From NCBI GenBank assembly GCA_023301465.1, contig JALZUQ010000055.1:1-53683 (forward strand): 53,683 nt of DNA, given 5' to 3'. Shown piece by piece: positions 13,748-25,509 of the stretch. The notes beneath the pieces were generated by a model, which was not told the DNA's origin, searched no databases, and was given only the letters and a program-made list of their open reading frames with translations. The position numbers and the translations under genes are program-made. Within the stretch, counting starts at the first letter, position 1; the number at the start of each line of letters is the position of its first letter. The stretch comes from Oligoflexales bacterium (GTDB taxonomy: Bacteria; Bdellovibrionota_B; Oligoflexia; Oligoflexales; JALZUQ01).

Positions 13748-15049
13748 CTAAGGGTTATTCTTGTTTAGCGGAAATGTCATGCTATGTTTTTTAACATCGT
13801 CTACACGCGGGTTTAGCCATAAGTTATTGTCAATAATCATGCCTATTCTCGTGATTTTTTGAGAGACGGTAACAGAACCGAATTGATCGGGTTCAGTTGT
13901 TCCCATAAACACCACCATATTTCCATGAAACATAGTCGGTCGTAATATACTGGAGTGTGATGTGTCTGTAGACTGATTTATGGATTTAAAGAAGTCATTG
14001 TCGCCTGATTCGAAACTTGCTTTGCGGAGTAAGGTATCTATTTGTTGAAGTGAAAGCTCTGATATTCGTATTCCACCAAAGTTATGAATGCCTAACATTT
14101 GTTCTTGTGAGTGAGTGCTAGTTTCTAATCCAAGTTGAGTGTTGTTAGTGTTTCGTATGATTGTATGAGTGTTACTATTATGATTTGTTTTCAAGCCTAT
14201 CTCAAAAGCTACTTCTTCGACATTAATATTATTTTGATGGCCAGAATTAAAGTTAGGTAGCTCTGTTGATATAAATAAATTAAATCTTTGCTTCGTTTTT
14301 GTTCGTGCGTCGTCAAGATTTTCTTTTTTAGGTATAGGGTTTAGTTCAATTTGTAGGAAAATATGATTTTCTAATATCGTGTGGTTTGGTCCATCATCAG
14401 GAAGGTCGGCCACTGCGTCTGTAATCTGCATAGTGAAGTTTTGTAAGTCCGATTGACTAAAGTTCGCTTCATTTATGAGGTAGTTTTCTACCATAAATGT
14501 CTTTTGATTTTGAAGGAGGCCTCGAGCGTCTATATCATAGAATTGGTATTCGCCATGTGTGGAGTTTCCAACAAGAACTTGGCTCTTTAAAACAACTAAA
14601 CTTATTTCAGATGCTTGTTTGGTCTCTTTGGTGGGGATCTCTATCGTTTGTAAAATCCTACCTTCTATAAGGTTGAATGTTATAAGCTTTGTTGTTTTGT
14701 CTGTCTCACGAGTAAGCATAAAAGCACTGTCTTTGTAAAAAACTATACGCTTTAAAGTAGAGTTGTTTCTCTCTAGCTTTTGAAAAAACTCATTCAACTC
14801 AGCAATAGATGTAGGTGGGAAATTGATGGTGTTTTCTAACATCTCTTCACGTGACTGAATGCTCTCATTAAGAATGCGCTTCATAACCCCGTCTAAAAAA
14901 TAAGGGTTCGTTTCTGTTTCAGAGTCTGTTTCTGTTTCAGAGTCCGTCTCTAGCCGATCGTCAAATCCTCCATGGCAGGCGTAAACAGGCTCCATGCTAT
15001 ATGCGAAGACAAGATAGGTGATGATGAAGATGCTTGGTAGAGTTCTCAT
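13748..15049 (-). CDS. Secreted protein of unknown function
   Basis: 433 residues with an N-terminal Sec signal (MRTLPSIFIITYLVFAYS..VYA, cleavage before or at Cys25; VYAC could also be a poor lipobox). Directly after it is a duplicated acidic DSETET hexapeptide (two adjacent copies, encoded by an 18-base tandem duplication near 14909-14944). The rest is rich in Asn, Thr, Ser and beta-strand patterns (DSAFMLTRETDK, GEYQFYDIDARG) that could fold as a propeller-like extracellular domain. I recognise no family. It is a single gene with no partner nearby. Confidence 0.6.
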   Translation of the reverse strand: MRTLPSIFIITYLVFAYSMEPVYACHGGFDDRLETDSETETDSETETNPYFLDGVMKRILNESIQSREEMLENTINFPPTSIAELNEFFQKLERNNSTLKRIVFYKDSAFMLTRETDKTTKLITFNLIEGRILQTIEIPTKETKQASEISLVVLKSQVLVGNSTHGEYQFYDIDARGLLQNQKTFMVENYLINEANFSQSDLQNFTMQITDAVADLPDDGPNHTILENHIFLQIELNPIPKKENLDDARTKTKQRFNLFISTELPNFNSGHQNNINVEEVAFEIGLKTNHNSNTHTIIRNTNNTQLGLETSTHSQEQMLGIHNFGGIRISELSLQQIDTLLRKASFESGDNDFFKSINQSTDTSHSSILRPTMFHGNMVVFMGTTEPDQFGSVTVSQKITRIGMIIDNNLWLNPRVDDVKKHSMTFPLNKNNP

Positions 15050-15199
15050 TGGTGTAAAGCCTTGTGGTTCTGGAGGTTGAAGCTATATAAGAGGGGGCAA
15101 GCTAGCACAGTATTTCAGAGTGTTCAATTATTGATCGTGAAAAGCATTGAGCTCTTTAGGGGAGGGAAGCTATACTTTTTATAGCGTTTTAAATACAGA

Positions 15200-15236
15200 A
15201 AAACCCCGCTGAACCACAAGTTCAGTCGGGGTTTTG
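15200..15236 (-). terminator. Terminator of the Fis-type gene
   Basis: AAAACCCCG-CTGAAC-cacaa-GTTCAG-t-CGGGGTTTT forms a long stem with one bulge. A T-rich tail follows on the minus strand, 19 bases after the regulator's stop. The sequence is nearly symmetric, so it may also shield the 13748 gene from readthrough. Confidence 0.8.
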
Positions 15237-15254
15237 TCTAATGTTGTGTATAGC

Positions 15255-15614
15255 TTACGAGTGTAATCCGTACATTTTCATTTTTTTACGTAAAGTGTTT
15301 CTGTTGATACCCAAGATGCGTGCAGCATGTACTTGGTTTCCGCCAGTACGCTTCAAGATTTGACCAAGAAGTGGTTTTTCAACTTTCTTGATGATCAGTT
15401 CGTGAAGGTTTTCTGGGTAGAATGTACCAATTTGATCAAGAAATCTTGATATTTTTGACTCAACAACAGCTTCTAGAGAATAAGCGTCAAGTTGCGTTGC
15501 TAACTCAAGATCCTCTATTTTCTCAGCACCCTTGATCGAGCTCGTCGGGTCTGTGATAGTTGGTGTTGGAGTTGGTCCTAAATTTGCGTTCGTATGATTC
15601 ACAGTTGTTTCCAC
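15255..15614 (-). CDS. Fis-family DNA-binding protein
   Basis: 119 residues from GTG 15614, which has a GGAGAGG site 8 bases upstream; the frame is open to 15698 but without a better start. The C-terminal 45 residues (ILKRTGGNQVHAARILGINRNTLRKKMKMYG) form the Fis-type helix-turn-helix seen in Fis and at the end of NtrC-type activators. The N-terminal half is Thr/Pro-rich and then acidic. No AAA+ domain is present, so it is a free-standing Fis-like protein, probably a nucleoid or global regulator. It is divergent from grpE. Confidence 0.8.
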   Translation of the reverse strand: METTVNHTNANLGPTPTPTITDPTSSIKGAEKIEDLELATQLDAYSLEAVVESKISRFLDQIGTFYPENLHELIIKKVEKPLLGQILKRTGGNQVHAARILGINRNTLRKKMKMYGLHS

Positions 15615-15688
15615 TAAAGTATCCTCTCCATGCCTCAGTTCTTGTTCAATAATTTGCCCTGTAAAGGGGCTCGTTCCTACTGATTGGA

Positions 15689-15717
15689 TAAGTAGCAAGA
15701 GTATAAAAGGCTGTCAA
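15689..15717 (-). promoter_or_regulatory. Possible promoter of the Fis-type gene
   Basis: On the minus strand a perfect TTGACA (15712-15717) is followed after 17 bases by TACTTA (15689-15694) preceded by TG. The -35 is ideal and the -10 is poor. It lies 75 bases upstream of the chosen GTG start. Confidence 0.35.
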
Positions 15718-15829
15718 CAGCTGGGTTTTTTTTTTGAAAGGTCTTGAAATAATATAGCTTTTTAGGGTATCTGAGGTACCTAAGGACTGCTGAGTTTTTA
15801 GATACTTGTACAATTTGAGAGGAAATCCC

Positions 15830-16387
15830 ATGGAAATGGACCAAGAACAAGAAAAAGGCAAGATCTTAGACCTCGATGGAAATCAGGTTGAAGACGGTGT
15901 TTCTGAAGAAAATACGAACGAAAACTTGGCCGCTGAGCTGACCTCAGAAGAACTTTTAGAACAGCAAGTGAAAGACCAAGAAGAAAAATTTCTTCGATTA
16001 GTCGCGGAAATGGACAACCTTCGCAAGCGTCACGAAAAACAATTAAGCGACATGCAAAAGTTTGCTGTGGAAAAAGTGATGAAAGAAGTACTTCCGGTTC
16101 TCGATAGTTTTGAGCAAGCACTTGGAACAACTGATAGTGCCGAGTCAGAGTTTCATAAAGGTATGTTTTTAGTAAGAGAGCAACTTTTGCAATGTTTACA
16201 AAGAAACGGTTTGCAGCAAATGGAGAGTATTGGAAAACCTTTTGATCCAAACTTTCATCAGGCTATTAAGACAACTTCTGTTGAAGATAGTGATGAAGAA
16301 GTTGTTTTGACTGAGTTTCAAAAAGGCTACACCCTAAGTGGCAGGTTGATTCGTGCTGCTATGGTGGAAGTTTCATCAGGCAGTTGA
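15830..16387 (+). CDS. grpE: Nucleotide exchange factor GrpE
   Basis: 185 residues from ATG 15830, placed by a GAGAGGAAA site; an in-frame TTG at 15806 is less likely. An acidic N-terminus leads into the long dimerisation helix (LLEQQVKDQEEKFLRLVAEM, then DNLRKRHEKQ) and the C-terminal beta domain (GKPFDPNFHQAI, GYTLSGRLIRAAMVEV). It releases ADP from DnaK. dnaK and dnaJ are not adjacent, which is less common; the gene stands alone, with a terminator behind it and lon next. A CTTGAAA box at 15743-15749 resembles a heat-shock -35, but no matching -10 is clear. Confidence 0.95.
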   Translation: MEMDQEQEKGKILDLDGNQVEDGVSEENTNENLAAELTSEELLEQQVKDQEEKFLRLVAEMDNLRKRHEKQLSDMQKFAVEKVMKEVLPVLDSFEQALGTTDSAESEFHKGMFLVREQLLQCLQRNGLQQMESIGKPFDPNFHQAIKTTSVEDSDEEVVLTEFQKGYTLSGRLIRAAMVEVSSGS

Positions 16388-16409
16388 TGATTTGTGTTTT
16401 GCGAGCAAG

Positions 16410-16447
16410 AGAGTCACGTCATCCGTAAAGATGAAGTGACTCTTTTT
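16410..16447 (+). terminator. Terminator of grpE
   Basis: AGAGTCACGTCATC-cgtaaa-GATGAAGTGACTCT forms a stem with one internal mismatch and ends in TTTTT, 23 bases after the grpE stop. Confidence 0.85.
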
Positions 16448-16468
16448 AGTACCTAGCGTTTAAAAAAT

Positions 16469-16482
16469 AACCTGAACAGGTT
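16469..16482. repeat. Palindrome upstream of lon
   Basis: AACCTG-AA-CAGGTT is a perfect inverted repeat about 150 bases before the lon extended -10. It may be an operator or an accident; it does not match the CIRCE element. Confidence 0.25.
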
Positions 16483-16620
16483 ACGTCTAAGGCAACCTTC
16501 ACCAATTACGTAAGGCCGCAACTTGAAATGCTAAACTGTGATTTTCCCGGTTTTTTAACAATGAAATTCTGTTATTTTTTTCAAAATTAATTTATTTGCT
16601 CACACTGTCTAGCTCCTCCT

Positions 16621-16629
16621 TGCTATAAT
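16621..16629 (+). promoter_or_regulatory. Extended -10 promoter of lon
   Basis: TGCTATAAT is a perfect extended -10 element, 54 bases before the lon start. No good -35 lies at 17 bases, which this promoter class tolerates. Confidence 0.55.
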
Positions 16630-16682
16630 TAAAGAACAGCAACAACCCAATTCATTAGTTCTCAAATTCAGGAGTGCCATAT

Positions 16683-19103
16683 ATGTCTGATGTGACCGAG
16701 CAAAATCAGAACCTTCCAACAACGCTACCTTTGTTACCTTTGAAGGACATCGTGGTTTTCCCCCACATGATTGTGCCTGTTTTTATCAATGAAGAATTGT
16801 GTATCAATGCCGTTCAAAACGCATTACAAAATGATCGAAGAATCTTCTTATCAGCCTTCCATATGTCTGGAATGATAGAAGATGGCCTTGAAAGTTCCAC
16901 GGAGCCACCGTTTGATGTGTATGATATTGGAACTATTTGTTCTGTTATGCGTACCAGAAAACTTCCAGACGGAAGGATGAAGGTTCTTGTTCAGGGGATT
17001 GAAAAAGCAACGGTTAAAACACTCGCAGAATCTTCACCTTTCCCAATGGTTGAGCTTCAAGAGGTTGAAATTCCAGAACTAACAGAAGACCTGACGCCAG
17101 AGGTTGAAGCAAGTATTCGCCTTGTACGTGAAAGCCTTGAAAAAGTCGTCGGTCTTGGAAAAGTATTGTCACCAGATATATTAATGATTCTTGAAGACGT
17201 TAGTGACCCTGCAAAATTGTCTGATCTTGTCGCTGCAAACTTAGGTCTTAAAGTTCAAGAGGCTCAAAGCATTCTTGCAATTCATAATCCGTTGGAACGA
17301 TTAAAGAAAGTTCATTATTACTTATCAAAAGAGCTAGAAGTCTATCAAATGCAAATGAAGATCCAGTCTCAAGCAAAAGAAGAGATTAATCGTTTGCAAA
17401 GAGAGCACTATCTACGTGAGCAAATTAGAGCCATACGTAGTGAACTAGGTGATTCTGAAAAAGATGATGTAGAACAATTTTGGAAAAGCCTCGAATCTAT
17501 TGATATGCCTGAGCAACCTTTGAAAGAAATTTCTAGACAGATCAAACGTTTGGAGAGAATGCATCAAGATTCAAGTGAGGCAAACCTAACAAGAACTCAT
17601 ATTGAAACTGTGCTAGCACTGCCATGGGGAAAGCATACAGATGACAACCTTGATGTTCAAAATGTTGCCGATACTTTAGAAGAAGACCATTACGGTCTAG
17701 ATAAAGTAAAAGATAGAATTCTAGAGTACCTTGCGGTTAAGCGTTTAAATAAAAATGCTAAAAGTCCCATCATCTGTTTCGTAGGACCTCCGGGAGTGGG
17801 TAAAACTTCTTTAGGTAGATCCATTGCAAAAGCAATGGGGCGAAAGTTTGAGAGAATTTCGTTTGGTGGTGTTCGTGATGAAGCAGATATCCGTGGCCAT
17901 CGTAAAACTTATGTAGGTGCATTTCCAGGCAGAATTATCAGTGCCATTAAAAAAACAGGAACCTCTAATCCTCTTATCATGCTCGATGAGTTAGATAAAT
18001 TGAGTTCAGATTTTAGGGGCGACCCAGCTTCAGCTCTTTTAGAGGTGCTTGATCCTGAGCAAAATAAAAGTTTTGTAGACCATTACCTTGGTGTGGAGTT
18101 CGACTTATCGAAAGTTATGTTTATCGCGAATGCAAATAACCTTGCAACAATACCGGGGCCTCTATTGGACCGACTAGAAGTCATTGAAATATCTGGTTAC
18201 TCAGAAGAAGAAAAGCTAGCGATTGCAGAAAAGTACCTAATTCCTAAACAGTTAAAAGAAAAAGGCTTAGGCGTTGAAAACTTTCACTTTTCTAAAGACT
18301 CTATTTCTACTTTGATCAACGACTATACTCGTGAAAGTGGGCTTCGTGGTTTAGAAAAGCAAATTGCTTCAGTGTGTAGAAAAATCGCAAGACACGTTGC
18401 AGTAGATACGCTTCCTGTAGATCGTCAAGTTCTGAATTCAGAAACAGTGCGTGATCATCTTGGTGCAAGAAAGTTTGAAAGAGAATTCTCATTTGCTGAA
18501 CCTCTCCCAGGTGTTGCATTTGGTTTGGCTTACACCAACTATGGTGGTGAGGTACTTACGGTAGAAGTAAATTTGATTCCTTCAAAAACAGGTGGTTTGA
18601 CCTTAACAGGGAGGCTAGGAGAAGTGATGAAGGAGTCTGCTCAAGCAGCTCTTAGCTATATTCGTTCTCAAGCAAATACGCTTGGAATTGATCCAGCTAT
18701 TTTAACGAGAAACGAACTACATATTCATGTGCCAGCAGGGGCAATGCCTAAAGATGGACCTTCTGCAGGAACTGCGTTGGCAACGGCAATCTTATCTGCT
18801 CTTTTAAACCAAAAGACAAAACGTGCTGTAGCGATGACGGGTGAAATCACTATTCATGGTAAAGTATTAGCAATTGGTGGTCTTCGTGAAAAAGCATTGG
18901 CTGCACGTAGAGAAGGAATTCCAAAGATCCTTATTCCAAAAAGAAACGAACCAGATTGGAAAGATCTTCCTCAGTACTTAAAGGATTCTCTAGAAGTGCA
19001 GTTTGTAAGCGACTACCATGAAGTGCTGAGTGAGTTATTTGATATCCCTCAAATCACGCTTATAGAGCAGCCGTCAATTTTCACACATAATATTGCGAGT
19101 TAA
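16683..19103 (+). CDS. lon: ATP-dependent protease Lon
   Basis: 806 residues from ATG 16683, chosen because GGAG lies 8 bases upstream; GTG 16674 overlaps that site. The order is the N-terminal LON substrate-binding domain (LPLLPLKDIVVFPHMIVPVF), a coiled-coil helical region, the AAA+ domain (Walker A GPPGVGKTS near 367, Walker B LIMLDELDK) and the serine protease domain (PKDGPSAGTALA with catalytic Ser near 694; the partner Lys lies in GLREKALAA near 736). It degrades damaged and short-lived regulatory proteins in the cytoplasm. It is followed at once by a small membrane-protein gene. Confidence 0.98.
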   Translation: MSDVTEQNQNLPTTLPLLPLKDIVVFPHMIVPVFINEELCINAVQNALQNDRRIFLSAFHMSGMIEDGLESSTEPPFDVYDIGTICSVMRTRKLPDGRMKVLVQGIEKATVKTLAESSPFPMVELQEVEIPELTEDLTPEVEASIRLVRESLEKVVGLGKVLSPDILMILEDVSDPAKLSDLVAANLGLKVQEAQSILAIHNPLERLKKVHYYLSKELEVYQMQMKIQSQAKEEINRLQREHYLREQIRAIRSELGDSEKDDVEQFWKSLESIDMPEQPLKEISRQIKRLERMHQDSSEANLTRTHIETVLALPWGKHTDDNLDVQNVADTLEEDHYGLDKVKDRILEYLAVKRLNKNAKSPIICFVGPPGVGKTSLGRSIAKAMGRKFERISFGGVRDEADIRGHRKTYVGAFPGRIISAIKKTGTSNPLIMLDELDKLSSDFRGDPASALLEVLDPEQNKSFVDHYLGVEFDLSKVMFIANANNLATIPGPLLDRLEVIEISGYSEEEKLAIAEKYLIPKQLKEKGLGVENFHFSKDSISTLINDYTRESGLRGLEKQIASVCRKIARHVAVDTLPVDRQVLNSETVRDHLGARKFEREFSFAEPLPGVAFGLAYTNYGGEVLTVEVNLIPSKTGGLTLTGRLGEVMKESAQAALSYIRSQANTLGIDPAILTRNELHIHVPAGAMPKDGPSAGTALATAILSALLNQKTKRAVAMTGEITIHGKVLAIGGLREKALAARREGIPKILIPKRNEPDWKDLPQYLKDSLEVQFVSDYHEVLSELFDIPQITLIEQPSIFTHNIAS

Positions 19104-19366
19104 TGATGTCAGGTGGATTAGTGCTCATTCTTAAGTTTTTATTGGCAGGTGTTATCTGGTTCTACATCTTCTCGTTGATGGTGAGTGGAAAGAATGTGCT
19201 GACGCATGTGCAGGTGATGAAAAACAAGAACCCGGCGATCCAGAAAATTGAGGGCCGTGTAGAGTCTAAAATTGCAAAAATCAAAGAAAAATTAGGGGTT
19301 TCTACTCCCCCTGAACCGCCTGTTAAAATGCCAAATGTCACGAAAAAGAAGACTAAGAAATTCTAG
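19103..19366 (+). CDS. Small membrane-anchored basic protein
   Basis: 87 residues starting within the lon stop codon (ATG 19103, or ATG 19106), so it is coupled to lon. One transmembrane helix (about 7-27) is followed by a cytoplasmic amphipathic, Lys-rich part (KIEGRVESKIAKIKEKLG) and a Pro/Lys tail ending KKKTKKF. I recognise no family. The coupling to lon could mean a membrane-linked role in proteolysis, but that rests only on position. Confidence 0.6.
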   Translation: MMSGGLVLILKFLLAGVIWFYIFSLMVSGKNVLTHVQVMKNKNPAIQKIEGRVESKIAKIKEKLGVSTPPEPPVKMPNVTKKKTKKF

Positions 19367-19394
19367 AACTTTATAAATTGCCTAAATAATGTAT

Positions 19395-19428
19395 AACTCC
19401 AGAGTCAGCCAAACTTTGGAGTTTTTTT
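19395..19428 (+). terminator. Terminator-like hairpin covering the def ribosome binding site
   Basis: AACTCCA (19395-19401) pairs with TGGAGTT (19417-19423), and a T run continues to base 19428, directly before the def ATG at 19429. The GGAG inside the 3' arm (19418-19421) is also the only Shine-Dalgarno sequence available to def, 7 bases from its start. It may be an intrinsic terminator, a translation-blocking hairpin, or both. Confidence 0.55.
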
Positions 19429-19968
19429 ATGGCAGTACTAGAAGTTGTAGAGTTTCCAGCAAAGGTTCTCGAAACAAAATCACCAGAAGTCACCGTATTC
19501 GACGATGAACTACGTCAGTTTGTAAGCGATATGCACGAGACCATGGATGATGCAAATGGTATTGGGCTAGCCGCAAACCAGGTTGATCAATTACGTCGTA
19601 TCTTTGTGATCCATATACCTCTTGACCAAGAACGCTACGATGAAAAAGATGAGCCTAAGCAGCCTTGGCACAATAAGCGTTACACATTTATTAATCCAGT
19701 GATCACTAAAAAAGCTGGAAAGATTAGTTGGCAAGAAGGTTGTTTAAGTTTTCCAGAAATATTTGATTTTGTAAATCGAAGTGCTGAAGTGTGGGTAGAC
19801 GCATTTGATGAAAACGGCGAAAAGTTTTCGGTGCATGCAACGGGGCTTTTCTCTGTTTGTATTCAGCATGAGTTGGATCATATTGATGGGATTGTCTTTA
19901 TTAACAGAATGTCACGCCTTAAATCATCACTGATCAAAAAGAAAATTGCACGTAAGGGTCAAATGTAA
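19429..19968 (+). CDS. def: Peptide deformylase
   Basis: 179 residues. It removes the formyl group from nascent N-terminal methionine. The three metal-site motifs are present: GIGLAANQV (motif 1, with Asn where Pro is usual), EGCLSFPE (Cys ligand) and QHELDHIDG (two His ligands and catalytic Glu). An insertion of about ten residues (DQERYDEKDEPKQPWHNKRY) precedes the FINP strand. The stop overlaps the rpe start by one base. Its ribosome binding site lies within a hairpin. fmt, the usual partner, is not in the window. Confidence 0.96.
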   Translation: MAVLEVVEFPAKVLETKSPEVTVFDDELRQFVSDMHETMDDANGIGLAANQVDQLRRIFVIHIPLDQERYDEKDEPKQPWHNKRYTFINPVITKKAGKISWQEGCLSFPEIFDFVNRSAEVWVDAFDENGEKFSVHATGLFSVCIQHELDHIDGIVFINRMSRLKSSLIKKKIARKGQM

Positions 19969-20603
19969 TGACAATTATTGCTCCTTCATTATTAAGTGCT
20001 TCACCTATGCATATGGCAAGAGATATTGAGGCGGTAGAAAAAGCCGGAGCTGATTGGCATCATGTGGATGTGATGGATGGGCATTTCGTTCCAAACCTTA
20101 CTTATGGACCGCCTTTTATTAAATCATTAAAGCAAACAGCAAGTGTTCCACTGGATGTTCATATTATGGTTTCAAATCCTGATGAAACAGCGAAGCGTTT
20201 TTTAGATGCAGGTGCAGACTATTTAACATTTCATATTGAGGCTGCAAAAAACCCAGAAACAATCATATCCGAAATCAAATCAGCAGGTGCAAAGGCGGGT
20301 ATATCTCTTAACCCAGATACGCCTGTTGCAGATATCTTGCCATTTTTAGGTTCTTTGGATCTTGTTTTAGTTATGTCTGTGTATCCGGGTTTTGGTGGGC
20401 AAAAATTTATTCCAAACGCTATAGAAAAAGTAAAAAAAATAAGAGAAGTCTCGGGTGACTCTTTGATGATATCTGTAGACGGAGGCGTAAACGACTTAAC
20501 AGCAAAGCAAGTAAGAAATGTTGGTGCGAATGTCTTGGTGGCTGGAAGCTATGTTTACGGTAACAGTAATATGAAAACAGCGATAGAGTCGCTAAGAGGT
20601 TAA
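19968..20603 (+). CDS. rpe: Ribulose-phosphate 3-epimerase
   Basis: 211 residues, a TIM barrel of the usual length. It interconverts ribulose 5-phosphate and xylulose 5-phosphate in the pentose phosphate pathway. Signatures: APSLLSASPMHMARDIEAVE, HHVDVMDGHFVPNLTYGP (metal His/Asp), DVHIMVSNP, FHIEAA, VMSVYPGFGGQKFIP and ISVDGGVN. The start overlaps the def stop, so translation is coupled. Confidence 0.97.
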   Translation: MTIIAPSLLSASPMHMARDIEAVEKAGADWHHVDVMDGHFVPNLTYGPPFIKSLKQTASVPLDVHIMVSNPDETAKRFLDAGADYLTFHIEAAKNPETIISEIKSAGAKAGISLNPDTPVADILPFLGSLDLVLVMSVYPGFGGQKFIPNAIEKVKKIREVSGDSLMISVDGGVNDLTAKQVRNVGANVLVAGSYVYGNSNMKTAIESLRG

Positions 20604-20606
20604 TCA

Positions 20607-22148
20607 ATGTCAGGTGTTTTTCGTTTAGGTGTAGACTCTTTTTGTTCTCGCTCTTTGTCCAAAGTTATTTTGGGTAAAAAACCATATGAAGTAGAAGGTG
20701 CAACCTATAAAAAAATAGCAAAACTTCGCGAAGAAGTGGAGCGTATTGCAGAAGAAAGCAAATCTGTTTACGGTGTGAATACTGGATTTGGTTATTTGTC
20801 TGATGTTCAAATTTCTCCCTCAGATATAAAGACTCTTCAAGTAAATTTTTTACGATCACATGCTTGTGGTGTCGGTGATCCTATTCGGCCTAGTGTTGTA
20901 AAGGGTATGATGCTTACAAAAGCTCATCAGTTTTTGATGGGTCACTCTGGAGTAAGTGTTGAGCTTGTGGATCATATTCTTAAATTTATTGAACTTGATT
21001 TAATCCCTTATACACCTCGTCAAGGTAGCGTAGGGGCAAGTGGTGATCTTGCTCCTTTATCTCACATTGGGTTGACTTTGATAGGGGAAGGAGCTTTTTT
21101 ACAAGACGGAAAAAAAGTAAATGCAAAAGAAGTATTGGATCAACATGGGATTAAGCCAATAAGCCTAAGAGCTAAAGAGGGCTTGTCTCTTGCAAATGGC
21201 ACTCACTATATGGCTGTCTCAGCGGCCTTGCTGTTAGAGCAGTGCCGAAAGTTAATTCAAGCTTCTGAAGTCGTGGCAGCTCTTTCCTTGGATGCTTTCA
21301 GGGGTTCTATGGCTGCTTTTGATGAAAGAGTTCATATTGCCAGAAATCAAACAGGTCAAATGAAGACTGCAGCAAATATTAGAAAAATTTTTGCAAGCGG
21401 CCCTGATGAGATCATGGATTCACATAAAAACTGCGGTAAAATTCAAGACCCTTATAGTTATCGTTGTTTTGCTCAGGTAGCAGGATCAGCGAGAGACGCA
21501 CTGCGTTTTTGTGAAGATGTCATTAATCGTGAATTAAATAGTGCTACAGACAATCCGTTAATGTTTGAGAATATGGATTTTATCAGTGGAGGAAACTTTC
21601 ACGGTCAACCTATTGCGATGGCTTTAGATTTTCTTGCAATTGCAATGGCAGAGATAGGGAACATTTCTGAGAGAAGAATTGAAAAACTAACCATTCCGCA
21701 CTTAAGTGGTTTACCTGCGTTTCTTGTAAAGAAAAATGAGGGTTTAAACTCAGGGTTTATGATTGCCCATTATACGGCTTCATCATTAGTGGCAGATAAT
21801 AAACTTCATGCACAGCCTGCTTCTGTCGATTCTATTCCCACAAGTGCGAATAAAGAAGATCATGTTTCAATGGGGCCCAACTCAGTCCATCAGCTAGAAC
21901 GACTTTTAGCAAATCTCAAAAATATTCTGTCTATTGAGGCTTTGGCTGCATGCCAAGGAATAGACTTACTGGCTCCGCTTAAACCTAATCCAGCACTACA
22001 AAGTGCCTATACTATGGTAAGAGAGATTTCTGCGACTCTAGAAGATGACCGCTCTCTCTCAGAAGAGATTGAGGAACTAGGGCGTCATATACAAGAGGGA
22101 CGTCTCGTGGATGCACTGACTATGGTGGATTTAGGGGATGAATTCTAA
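20607..22148 (+). CDS. hutH: Histidine ammonia-lyase
   Basis: 513 residues. It converts histidine to urocanate. The Ala-Ser-Gly triad that forms the MIO cofactor is in GSVGASGDLAPLSHIG (about 145-147). VYGVNTGFGYLSDV, the Ser-His pair in LRSHACGVGDP that favours histidine over aromatic substrates, NGTHYM and TSANKEDHVSMGP also match HutH. An AGAGG site lies ahead of ATG 20607, three bases after rpe. No hutU, hutI or hutG is nearby, so it is either a partial pathway or has its partners elsewhere. Confidence 0.9.
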   Translation: MSGVFRLGVDSFCSRSLSKVILGKKPYEVEGATYKKIAKLREEVERIAEESKSVYGVNTGFGYLSDVQISPSDIKTLQVNFLRSHACGVGDPIRPSVVKGMMLTKAHQFLMGHSGVSVELVDHILKFIELDLIPYTPRQGSVGASGDLAPLSHIGLTLIGEGAFLQDGKKVNAKEVLDQHGIKPISLRAKEGLSLANGTHYMAVSAALLLEQCRKLIQASEVVAALSLDAFRGSMAAFDERVHIARNQTGQMKTAANIRKIFASGPDEIMDSHKNCGKIQDPYSYRCFAQVAGSARDALRFCEDVINRELNSATDNPLMFENMDFISGGNFHGQPIAMALDFLAIAMAEIGNISERRIEKLTIPHLSGLPAFLVKKNEGLNSGFMIAHYTASSLVADNKLHAQPASVDSIPTSANKEDHVSMGPNSVHQLERLLANLKNILSIEALAACQGIDLLAPLKPNPALQSAYTMVREISATLEDDRSLSEEIEELGRHIQEGRLVDALTMVDLGDEF

Positions 22149-22172
22149 GGAAGAATCTTTTAGAATAAATAT

Positions 22173-22547
22173 ATGAAATACTTCTTCATTTTTAGTTCGT
22201 TATTTTGTTTGCAACTTGCTCCAAGTGCGGGTACTCAAAGTTTTATAGGTGTTCAAGTCACAAAGGTGAACTGTGATCTACAAGTTTGTATACTTACCTT
22301 GAAATCCGATCATCAGAAACTATCCATTGCAATTAAAAGTAAGGACTTATCTTTTAAAGTTGGTGAGACTTTATGGGTTAATAATTTAAAGTTTATGAAC
22401 CATAGCACAGGTGTCTTAGCTGCTTTAAATTTACGTTTACCTAATAGTAAAATGGTTTTTCCATTGATTGCAGTTTCAAAGCAAAAGATTCAAGCAAAGT
22501 CTTTTCTTCGCCAGCATCACCCTTCATCTGATTATCTATTATTTTGA
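22173..22547 (+). CDS. Small exported protein, unknown
   Basis: 124 residues with a Sec signal (MKYFFIFSSLFCLQLAPSAG, cleavage near residue 20). The mature part is a beta-rich domain with a Cys pair (VNCDLQVC) that could form a disulfide in the periplasm. I recognise no family. It follows hutH closely and its stop overlaps the TTG start of the rhomboid gene, so it belongs to that transcript. Confidence 0.6.
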   Translation: MKYFFIFSSLFCLQLAPSAGTQSFIGVQVTKVNCDLQVCILTLKSDHQKLSIAIKSKDLSFKVGETLWVNNLKFMNHSTGVLAALNLRLPNSKMVFPLIAVSKQKIQAKSFLRQHHPSSDYLLF

Positions 22548-23662
22548 GTAGGACCGATCACGAATTTGGAACAAGGTTTCCACCTCAAGGGCAACCAACA
22601 GGTTTGAGGTACTTTCTTGGTACCGTTTCTGGTTGGATTATTATCATTAATACGATTGTTTTTTTGGCTATGACGATCATGAGTTGCTTTGATCCTGATA
22701 CATGGAAGCTTAACTTTGGTTGGGATGTTCTGTTTTTTCCGAGAGAGTGGGTCATCGTTTACTCTGGTGCAATGTCTATTTCACATATTGTAGAAGGTGA
22801 GTGGTGGCGTTTTTTTACGCCTATGTTTATTCACATTGGATTAATTCATTTTGTCTTTAACACCTTAGGTGTTTATTACATTGGTTATCAGCTTGAGAAG
22901 GTTGTGGGCAAAACAGGCTTTGTTCTTATTTATTTGGTGTCGGGCGTGTTTGGTACCATCGTTAGTGCTAACTTCAATTTAAAGTATAGTGCAGGTGCGT
23001 CAGGGGCTATTTTTGGACTGTTAGGCTTAGGTCTCTACCTAGAAGTTATCTTGCGAAAGCACCTTAAGATGCTTACGGGTGATGCTGTAAGAGTTCGTGG
23101 TGTTTTTGGTTCGATGATTGTTATCAACTTCTTACTTGGTTTCTTTGTTCCTGTGATTGATAACGCAGCTCACTTTGGTGGGTGGGTTGGTGGAATCTTG
23201 ATGTCATATGGGTTTTATAAGTATTTCGGAACAAAGTTTAACCCTCCCGTTAAGAAGACAGCCTTGTTGGTTTTTTTATTGCTATTTATTTTAAGTTTTG
23301 CAGGGATATATAGAGCTTCACAAAAAGAGATTGCTTTAAAGAGATTTGGAAACACGTCACAAGAGCTTGTGCAAGGCATGATTGAAAACGGACTCGACAT
23401 GGATCAAGCAAGGTTTGTGTATTACTACACAGAAAAAATGAAAAATATCGATCCTATGGATAATGAAGTTTGGTTTTTAAGGGGGCAGCTGTTTTCTTTA
23501 GATTTAGATTTTGAGCGTGCTATTCAAGAGTTTAGGGTTGTTGTAAGAGATCCAAAGTACCGTGAAAAAATCGAAAGTTTCATCTCAAAACTTGATGGAA
23601 AGAACCTTGAAAGCTGGAAGCTTAAACAGTTTATTGGTTTATATCCTTCAGGTGTTGAATAA
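22544..23662 (+). CDS. Rhomboid family intramembrane serine protease
   Basis: 372 residues with about six transmembrane helices in the first 250. The catalytic dyad is visible: Ser in AGASGAIFGLLG (near 155) and His in NAAHFGGWVGG (near 210); the oxyanion region HIGLIHFVFNTLGVYYIG also fits. The C-terminal 110 residues are cytoplasmic or periplasmic and helical, with a TPR-like MDNEVWFLRGQLFSLDLDFERAIQEF segment. The start is TTG 22544, overlapping the previous stop (TTGA), with no clear ribosome binding site. Its 3' end overlaps the converging aroE by 32 bases. Confidence 0.9.
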   Translation: MSRTDHEFGTRFPPQGQPTGLRYFLGTVSGWIIIINTIVFLAMTIMSCFDPDTWKLNFGWDVLFFPREWVIVYSGAMSISHIVEGEWWRFFTPMFIHIGLIHFVFNTLGVYYIGYQLEKVVGKTGFVLIYLVSGVFGTIVSANFNLKYSAGASGAIFGLLGLGLYLEVILRKHLKMLTGDAVRVRGVFGSMIVINFLLGFFVPVIDNAAHFGGWVGGILMSYGFYKYFGTKFNPPVKKTALLVFLLLFILSFAGIYRASQKEIALKRFGNTSQELVQGMIENGLDMDQARFVYYYTEKMKNIDPMDNEVWFLRGQLFSLDLDFERAIQEFRVVVRDPKYREKIESFISKLDGKNLESWKLKQFIGLYPSGVE

Positions 23663-24470
23663 TTGTCTGTGTTTCAAGTGTTTTTTTCCACCAAAGTCGT
23701 TGTGATTCTCTGGCTTGTTCTATAAGTAAAGTTAACCCATCTATACATTGCATTTGCTGAGTAAGTAGCTCAAATATTTTTGTGCGTTTGCTTCCATAGT
23801 TTGAGTCTATAAAAACTGCATTTTTAAACGTTGAGAGTGAAGAAAAATATTGCTCTAGTGGTGTAAATGGTTCATTAGAGCTTGTTGCGTGTAAAATTAC
23901 AGATGGTTTTTCTTTGTCTAAATCAGAAAGTTCACGACCTTGATCCATGATTAAATTTGATACGCCCTCTAAGTCTTGAATTTTTTTTCTGGTAATGCAA
24001 GTGATGTCCAAATGTGGGTGATGATCACGCATGAATTTCATAATAGAATACGCGAATCCACCTCCACCGAAGACAATGAGCTGTTTTAGTTCTTGAGTAG
24101 AGATAGAATAGTTATCAAGTACTTTTATAAATCCGATACAGTCAGTATTGGTGGTTTGTTGGTTTCCAAAAATAGTATTCACAGGAACTTCAGATCCAAG
24201 TTTTTTGGCGGTTAACCACTTGTATGGTTTGGTGATATTAAGACCTTTCATACCTAAGGTACGACGGTCTTCCATAAATTCATCAAATTCATGGGGAGGA
24301 ACATCTAGAAGTTTATATATTCCATGAATGCCAAGAGAATCCATTACGAATTGATGAATATGGGGAGAAAGCGAGTATGATATTTGGTGTCCGAGCAAAC
24401 CGTACTGGGGCAAAGAGTCTTGAAAGACGTCTTTCCAGTAGTGATTTGTGGTGACAGACTCTTTTTTCAT
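23631..24470 (-). CDS. aroE: Shikimate dehydrogenase
   Basis: 279 residues from ATG 24470 (AGGA just upstream; TTG 24473 is adjacent). It reduces 3-dehydroshikimate with NADPH in aromatic amino-acid synthesis. YGLLGHQISYSLSPHIHQF is the substrate-binding Ser motif, GLNITKPYKW holds the catalytic Lys near 80, NTDCIGF the catalytic Asp, and IVFGGGGFAYSIM the nucleotide fold. Several positions depart from consensus (HQISYSLSP instead of GxPxxHSLSP, NTDCIGF instead of NTDGxGF), so it is a divergent AroE. It ends inside the rhomboid gene. Confidence 0.82.
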   Translation of the reverse strand: MKKESVTTNHYWKDVFQDSLPQYGLLGHQISYSLSPHIHQFVMDSLGIHGIYKLLDVPPHEFDEFMEDRRTLGMKGLNITKPYKWLTAKKLGSEVPVNTIFGNQQTTNTDCIGFIKVLDNYSISTQELKQLIVFGGGGFAYSIMKFMRDHHPHLDITCITRKKIQDLEGVSNLIMDQGRELSDLDKEKPSVILHATSSNEPFTPLEQYFSSLSTFKNAVFIDSNYGSKRTKIFELLTQQMQCIDGLTLLIEQARESQRLWWKKTLETQTIIQHLKDINQ

Positions 24471-24555
24471 CAAATCCTGCAGTGAATTTCATAAGAAGAC
24501 TAACACGACCATAGGGTAATGTTGAAAGTAAAAGCGATTCAATGTAGAAAATACC

Positions 24556-25509
24556 ATGTTATTTAAAATGAAATTTCAAGAATTACGCAAATCTAAGGCT
24601 GTTGAAAAAACAATCGTCATGGGGAATTTTGACGGTTTCCATAAAGGTCATATGCATTTGATTTCTACTGCGAAATCTCAAGCGGATAAATTTGGTCACT
24701 CTCTTAACTTAGTTACTTTTAACCCTCACCCTCACCAGTATTTTTCTAGGCTTGATCATGGTTTGCTTTGCACTCATGAAATGAAACAAAACCTAGCTAA
24801 GGAAGTAGGCTTTGACGGGATCTATGTCATTGAGTTTGATGAAACCCTGGCGTCTATGGAGCCGGTAGAGTTTGTAAAAAATTTAAAAGAAGCAATTCAA
24901 CCATCCTCAATTTTTGTAGGAAACAACTTTTTTTATGGCAAAGCCCGGAGGGGAAGCACTCTCACTTTGAGAGAGGATGCCGCTAAGTATGATATGAAAG
25001 TTGCTGTAGTAGATCTTGAGGTTTCTGACCATGATTCAATTTCAAGCTCTTTGATAAGAGGTCTTTTAGTTAAAGGCGAATTTGATCGAGCAAGTAAGCT
25101 TCTTGGAAGAGAGTTCGTGTATTTGGCAAAGTGTGAAAAAGGCAAGGCGATTGGCCGAGAGATGGGTTTTCCAACCATGAACCTGCAAAACGATCATCAG
25201 CTTATGCCTGAAAATGGGGTTTATGCTGGCAGGGTCATTCTTAATCCTCAAGGTTTTTTTGCAGATGTTATTTCACAAAAAAAATATAAAGCAGTCATTA
25301 ATATCGGCCATAGGCCTTCATTTAACTTTTCGCCGAAACCCATCATAGAAGCTCATGTTTTTGATGGTTCATTTGAGTCTGTTCAACAATATGGTCAAGC
25401 TATTGGGGTTGTTTTCAAGAAAAAAATAAGAGAAGAAATTAAATTTTCATCAAGAGAAGAGCTTATGGCTCAAATTCAAATTGATATCAAAGAAGCTTCT
25501 TATGTCTAG
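24556..25509 (+). CDS. ribF: Bifunctional riboflavin kinase / FAD synthetase
   Basis: 317 residues. The N-terminal FAD synthetase half has MGNFDGFHKGHMHLI (nucleotidyltransferase HxGH-like motif near 23-32) and NNFFYGKARRGS. The riboflavin kinase half has GREMGFPTMNL near 203, NGVYAGRV and VINIGHRPSF. It makes FMN and FAD from riboflavin. ATG 24556 or 24568 could start; neither has a strong ribosome binding site. The 3' end overlaps the next start. Confidence 0.95.
   Translation: MLFKMKFQELRKSKAVEKTIVMGNFDGFHKGHMHLISTAKSQADKFGHSLNLVTFNPHPHQYFSRLDHGLLCTHEMKQNLAKEVGFDGIYVIEFDETLASMEPVEFVKNLKEAIQPSSIFVGNNFFYGKARRGSTLTLREDAAKYDMKVAVVDLEVSDHDSISSSLIRGLLVKGEFDRASKLLGREFVYLAKCEKGKAIGREMGFPTMNLQNDHQLMPENGVYAGRVILNPQGFFADVISQKKYKAVINIGHRPSFNFSPKPIIEAHVFDGSFESVQQYGQAIGVVFKKKIREEIKFSSREELMAQIQIDIKEASYV

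Follow-up and report, generated by a model that had tools for sequence, protein, structure and literature searches.

Among terminators whose ends have been mapped, those of Zymomonas mobilis average a stem of about 11 bp and a loop of 4 nt, according to the available part of the source (PMC7566282). Terminators can also be combined with a ribosome-binding site (RBS). In the repC attenuator of pT181, a Staphylococcus aureus plasmid, an AGGAG within the terminator's 3' half was proposed early on to serve as the repC RBS, and reporter experiments point to control of transcription as well as translation, as recounted in the accessible excerpts of one article (PMC5435934). In the vmlR leader of Bacillus subtilis, termination and hiding of the Shine-Dalgarno sequence (SD) act on one gene, as far as the accessible portion of the report describes it (PMC9226507).

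A hairpin directly ahead of def, encoding peptide deformylase, was analyzed here in the window, i.e. the whole stretch of 53,683 nt (contig JALZUQ010000055.1 of an Oligoflexales bacterium). Positions 19395-19431 of the window read AACTCCAGAGT CAGCCAA ACTTTGGAGTT TTTTTATG, and the features of the locus are as follows.

16674..19103, + strand: lon (endopeptidase La), which opens the upstream unit (TIGR00763, 1.5e-271, above cut-off)
19103..19366, + strand: ORF87, a small ORF call of 87 aa with one hydrophobic stretch
19360..19372, + strand: strand able to pair weakly with the hairpin 5' arm in nascent RNA, including the ORF87 stop codon (19364-19366)
19392..19397, + strand: TATAAC, a possible but weak -10 with no good -35, overlapping the beginning of the 5' arm
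19395..19405, + strand: 5' arm of the terminator hairpin, AACTCCAGAGT
19406..19412, + strand: 7-nt loop, CAGCCAA
19413..19423, + strand: 3' arm of the terminator hairpin, ACTTTGGAGTT, holding the def SD
19418..19421, + strand: GGAG, sole def SD, inside the stem and 7 nt from the ATG
19422..19428, + strand: T run ending at the def start codon, its first two T within the stem
19429..19968, + strand: def, peptide deformylase (PF01327, 9e-48; TIGR00079, 8.3e-45)
19968..20603, + strand: rpe, overlapping the def stop (ORF and profile matches)
20607..22148, + strand: hutH, 3 nt past rpe (ORF and NCBIfam match)

The hairpin (19395-19423) has a stem of 11 bp that begins 28 nt past the ORF87 stop; TTTTT extends past the stem, for seven T in total, and the def ATG (19429-19431) lies directly 3' of the T run. 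It sits between two tightly packed gene groups: on one side, the ORF87 ATG overlaps the lon stop (TAATG, 19101-19105), and on the other, def, rpe and hutH are separated by gaps of at most 3 nt. In the initial annotation lon was taken to adjoin the hairpin; lon is indeed upstream, but ORF87, for which Pfam and NCBIfam searches gave no match, intervenes. The def start codon is plausible, with an N-terminus (MAVLxV) common to relatives such as G001, the sole other genome of the same family compared, in which def is 69% identical and the aligned start is also ATG.

By itself, the hairpin folds at -12.9 kcal/mol, and the 61-nt fold reaches -17.7 kcal/mol (z -3.41; matched by 1 of 200 shuffles). When 19367-19436 was subjected to 3000 dinucleotide shuffles, a terminator-like site of any kind arose in six, and one equal to the hairpin in stability, with a T run, in none; because no shuffle matches its stability, the hairpin is beyond chance. 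It shows what characterizes an intrinsic terminator, namely a stable stem-loop, a T run right after the stem and a location past the end of a transcription unit. The terminator-shaped hairpin with a T run ending at the def start, as originally described, is thus confirmed by sequence, folding and shuffles.

Its strength is ordinary for the genome, since it ranks 36th by energy among 61 intergenic terminator-like entries in a 447-kb sample (the window plus 393.5 kb from the same genome), a list in which a two-way hairpin is counted once per strand. SD-like strings are also common in terminator arms, as 14 of the 61 entries, corresponding to 11 distinct hairpins with three listed on both strands, carry GGAG, GAGG or AGGA in the last 12 stem nt. 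A terminator abutting a start codon is rare. A second scan with other thresholds placed 51 of 80 sites in intergenic DNA and 21 no more than 400 nt from the start codon of an ORF on the same strand; five sites lie within 25 nt of an ORF start, and def alone has its first possible start after the stem, the ORF at the other four being able to begin ahead of the stem end. Moreover, the def SD is the least accessible among 150 sampled genes with an SD (0.0001; median 0.37), in a ranking that is approximate, the start codons of the sampled genes having been chosen by rule. A genome-wide search for GGAGTTTTTTTATG with at most one mismatch returned 15 places, as many as the reversed control; of the 8 places read, one besides def is exact but precedes no long frame, and only the one at def is a terminator that directly adjoins the start of a gene.

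One of these other four sites within 25 nt of an ORF start is L079, whose SD is the second least accessible of the 150. On its minus strand, at ~1345-1391, a terminator of -13.6 kcal/mol has a T run leading straight into TTGGAG ahead of a TTG start, and the sole SD of L079 comes after the T run. It may be another instance of a terminator lying tight against the start of a gene.

What the hairpin does to def is expected to depend on where the RNA begins. For RNA starting at 19100-19385, all four bases of the SD have an unpaired probability of 0.00, so the folding model predicts a fully paired def SD in RNA begun upstream. Only one GGAG occurs in 19380-19430, at 19418 and wholly within the 3' arm, which bears out the early remark that the only def SD is locked in the stem. 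RNAs starting at 19400-19410 lack the beginning of the 5' arm; for them the SD unpaired probability is 0.02-0.52 per base, a partial release. Peptide deformylase is usually essential, and a single def match was found in this genome (G000); some def RNA should therefore offer a usable SD.

The hairpin most likely marks an ordinary operon boundary. It would be the intrinsic terminator of the lon-ORF87 unit, with its 3' arm and T run doubling as the ribosome-binding region of def. Polymerase arriving from lon would mostly halt in the T run, about at the def start codon, and read-through RNA would have the def SD buried and would probably be poorly translated. def-rpe-hutH would be transcribed mainly from a start of its own within the 5' arm, at ~19399-19407, in which case the terminator could not form and the SD would be partly freed. 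Actual termination at the hairpin is highly probable; the start of a def RNA inside it is put forward tentatively. The whole reading, a lon-ORF87 terminator compressed against def together with a separate def start inside the hairpin, is likewise given just under an even chance. The initial annotation had foreseen that lon transcripts would either stop at the hairpin or have def translation blocked. Of this, the pairing of the SD in the long RNA is supported by the folding model, while termination and poor translation are what we infer.

The promoter that such a start would need was sought with a model built on 28 regions upstream of tRNAs, which is sharp (TTGAC, 17 nt, TA). No convincing def promoter was found by this model in 19330-19428, where the top site scores 4.0 bits, a value equalled by 40% of 3000 random 99-mers. 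TATAAC (19392-19397), a fair -10 that comes out as the top one in 2 of the 28 tRNA upstream regions as well, scores 0.37 bits when paired with its best -35. The model neither supports nor excludes a def promoter, because it barely separates upstream regions of protein genes from coding DNA (medians of 3.14 for 45 divergent upstream regions vs 3.12 for 233 coding stretches; 90th percentiles of 8.2 for protein-gene upstream regions vs 6.2 for coding). Motif discovery in the upstream regions of protein genes yielded no sharp motif. A promoter shared with G001 was considered and rejected: among 2000 shuffles, 24% equal the best local match between the gaps, GCCTAAATAA--TGTAT, when whole gaps are compared, and 10% when only the last 70 nt are used. 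For its 5' portion by itself the figure is 1.9%, but this part was picked afterwards and is not relied on.

Since no convincing promoter was detected and the promoter model cannot decide, leaky read-through remains a serious rival, although a somewhat unlikely one. It would make the hairpin a leaky terminator only, with no switch and no start inside it; def would be expressed from read-through or from a promoter upstream, such as one within ORF87, and only weakly, to an extent that termination and SD pairing would determine. The middling strength of the hairpin and the empty promoter scan of the gap are consistent with this, as is the position of the strongest nearby promoter-like site, TTGGCA-17-CATCTT (19142-19170, 9.69 bits), inside ORF87, a start from which would yield RNA carrying the entire hairpin. 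However, this site lies in coding DNA and is simply the best of a 929-nt scan. Every RNA of this kind would have its def SD fully paired, which is awkward for a single-copy housekeeping gene, and the ORF87 ribosome, which leaves the RNA at 19366 with 28 nt still to go before the stem, would not open it.

Comparison with relatives bears on both the operon boundary and its overlap with the def RBS. In G001, lon and def are 197 nt apart, which leaves no room for ORF87; a terminator of -18.4 kcal/mol lies 28 nt past lon and ~140 nt ahead of def, no such hairpin is present at def, and the def SD (GGAG) has an access of 0.50. Because the G001 terminator follows lon and its def SD is free, the transcription boundary between lon and def is kept in G001, whereas the SD lock and the overlap are not. 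The proposed uncoupling of def-rpe-hutH from lon is therefore supported as a boundary, by the terminator shape in the window and by the G001 terminator.

Across the order, 37 of 43 genomes entered the upstream counts; G004 and G011 were left out for having no def match, and G028, G029, G040 and G042 for partial, split or weak def matches. G003, with a gap below 30 nt, was further omitted from the count of terminators in the gap. A terminator-like site, by loose criteria, precedes def in 15 of 36 genomes vs 7.95 expected from mononucleotide shuffles, and none of the 36 except the window has one ending within 20 nt of def. A locked SD is not a general trait of def in the order, as SD access spans 0.00 to 1.00 over the 37 genomes. 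By eye, the def gaps of order relatives do not align with the hairpin, and many order genomes have small ORFs ahead of def that contain a hydrophobic stretch. A sequence search with ORF87 gave hits in 3 of 42 other genomes at E ≤0.001, beside def in G020 only.

Other elements were noticed ahead of def in these relatives. In the 200 nt ahead of def, 23 of 37 order genomes have a TATGCTA with no more than one mismatch (7 exact; 9.2 expected from mononucleotide shuffles), a post hoc count of a motif spotted by eye; examples are found at 1462-1468 in L013 and L017 and at 1426-1432 in L012, and the motif is missing upstream of def in G000 and G001. It is not taken for a general promoter, lying upstream of an ORF at 0 of 7 sites in G008, 0 of 1 in G015 and 3 of 33 in G000 (200-kb samples). 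In L013, L017 and L019, a different hairpin (CCTGTG..CACAGG, ~1466-1490), without a T run, covers part of the GGAG just ahead of def, with an SD access of 0.25-0.26. In L012, a large terminator-like hairpin (1410-1469, -26.9 kcal/mol) ahead of def contains TATGCTA, so a promoter nested within a terminator is possible there.

Regulation by the hairpin is a further alternative. A regulated attenuator, in which a dual switch on transcription and translation would be opened by alternative pairing, a protein or an antisense RNA, is improbable. It can draw on the same geometry in the pT181 repC attenuator, as presented in the accessible excerpts (PMC5435934), and on the ability of 19360-19372 to pair with the 5' arm in nascent RNA made as far as 19411, with a mean probability of 0.73 that is reached by 2.7% of 300 mononucleotide shuffles. 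By fold energy, however, no alternative antiterminator predicted to compete with the terminator was found: over 19285-19432, the terminator fold has -23.8 kcal/mol, and the best fold that leaves the 3' arm unpaired reaches -14.5 kcal/mol, ~9 kcal/mol worse. In addition, no Rfam family matched in 15000-25000 at the gathering score, the hairpin is absent at def in G001, and SD access varies over its full range among the 37 order genomes. No evidence of switching was found at the def hairpin, and the suggestion of control by structure, made alongside that of uncoupling, is not supported by these results. Very unlikely, too, is a pT181-like dual switch in which the hairpin would stop transcription and hide the SD while translation of ORF87, with its stop codon in the competing strand, tipped the balance; if true, the amount of deformylase made would follow how strongly the Lon protease unit is expressed. 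That the hairpin is a chance inverted repeat without function is hardly credible: no other order genome of 36 has a terminator-like site this close to def, but none of the dinucleotide shuffles reached its stability with a T run, and G001, too, has a terminator at this boundary.

If the reading of an operon boundary with a def start inside the hairpin holds, a single stretch would serve both to end one operon and to receive ribosomes for the following one. Programs that predict genes and operons from sequence only may then join lon to def, and may give def a ribosome site that is unusable in the long RNA. By itself, the def hairpin shows no new mechanism. A search of the open-access literature with narrow terms found no def gene with such a hairpin, and the geometry of an SD within a terminator is already known from pT181 repC, as far as the available excerpts go.

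Altogether, the def hairpin resembles intrinsic terminators between in-line genes in having an 11-bp stem, a loop and a T run past the last stop codon. It differs from the usual ones in that its T run ends at the next start codon and its 3' arm carries the sole SD of that gene. As in pT181 repC, the SD (here GGAG) lies in the terminator arm. In contrast to the def locus, where the competing pairing is weak and the spacing of the SD to the start codon is 7 nt, pT181 has a strong alternative antiterminator and an RBS 12 nt from the start, in the part of the literature at hand; pT181 also has an antisense RNA. In the vmlR leader, again as described in the accessible portion of that report, the tasks are split over two hairpins with an antibiotic-responsive upstream ORF, whereas at def a single hairpin, beside which no sensor was seen, would hold both.
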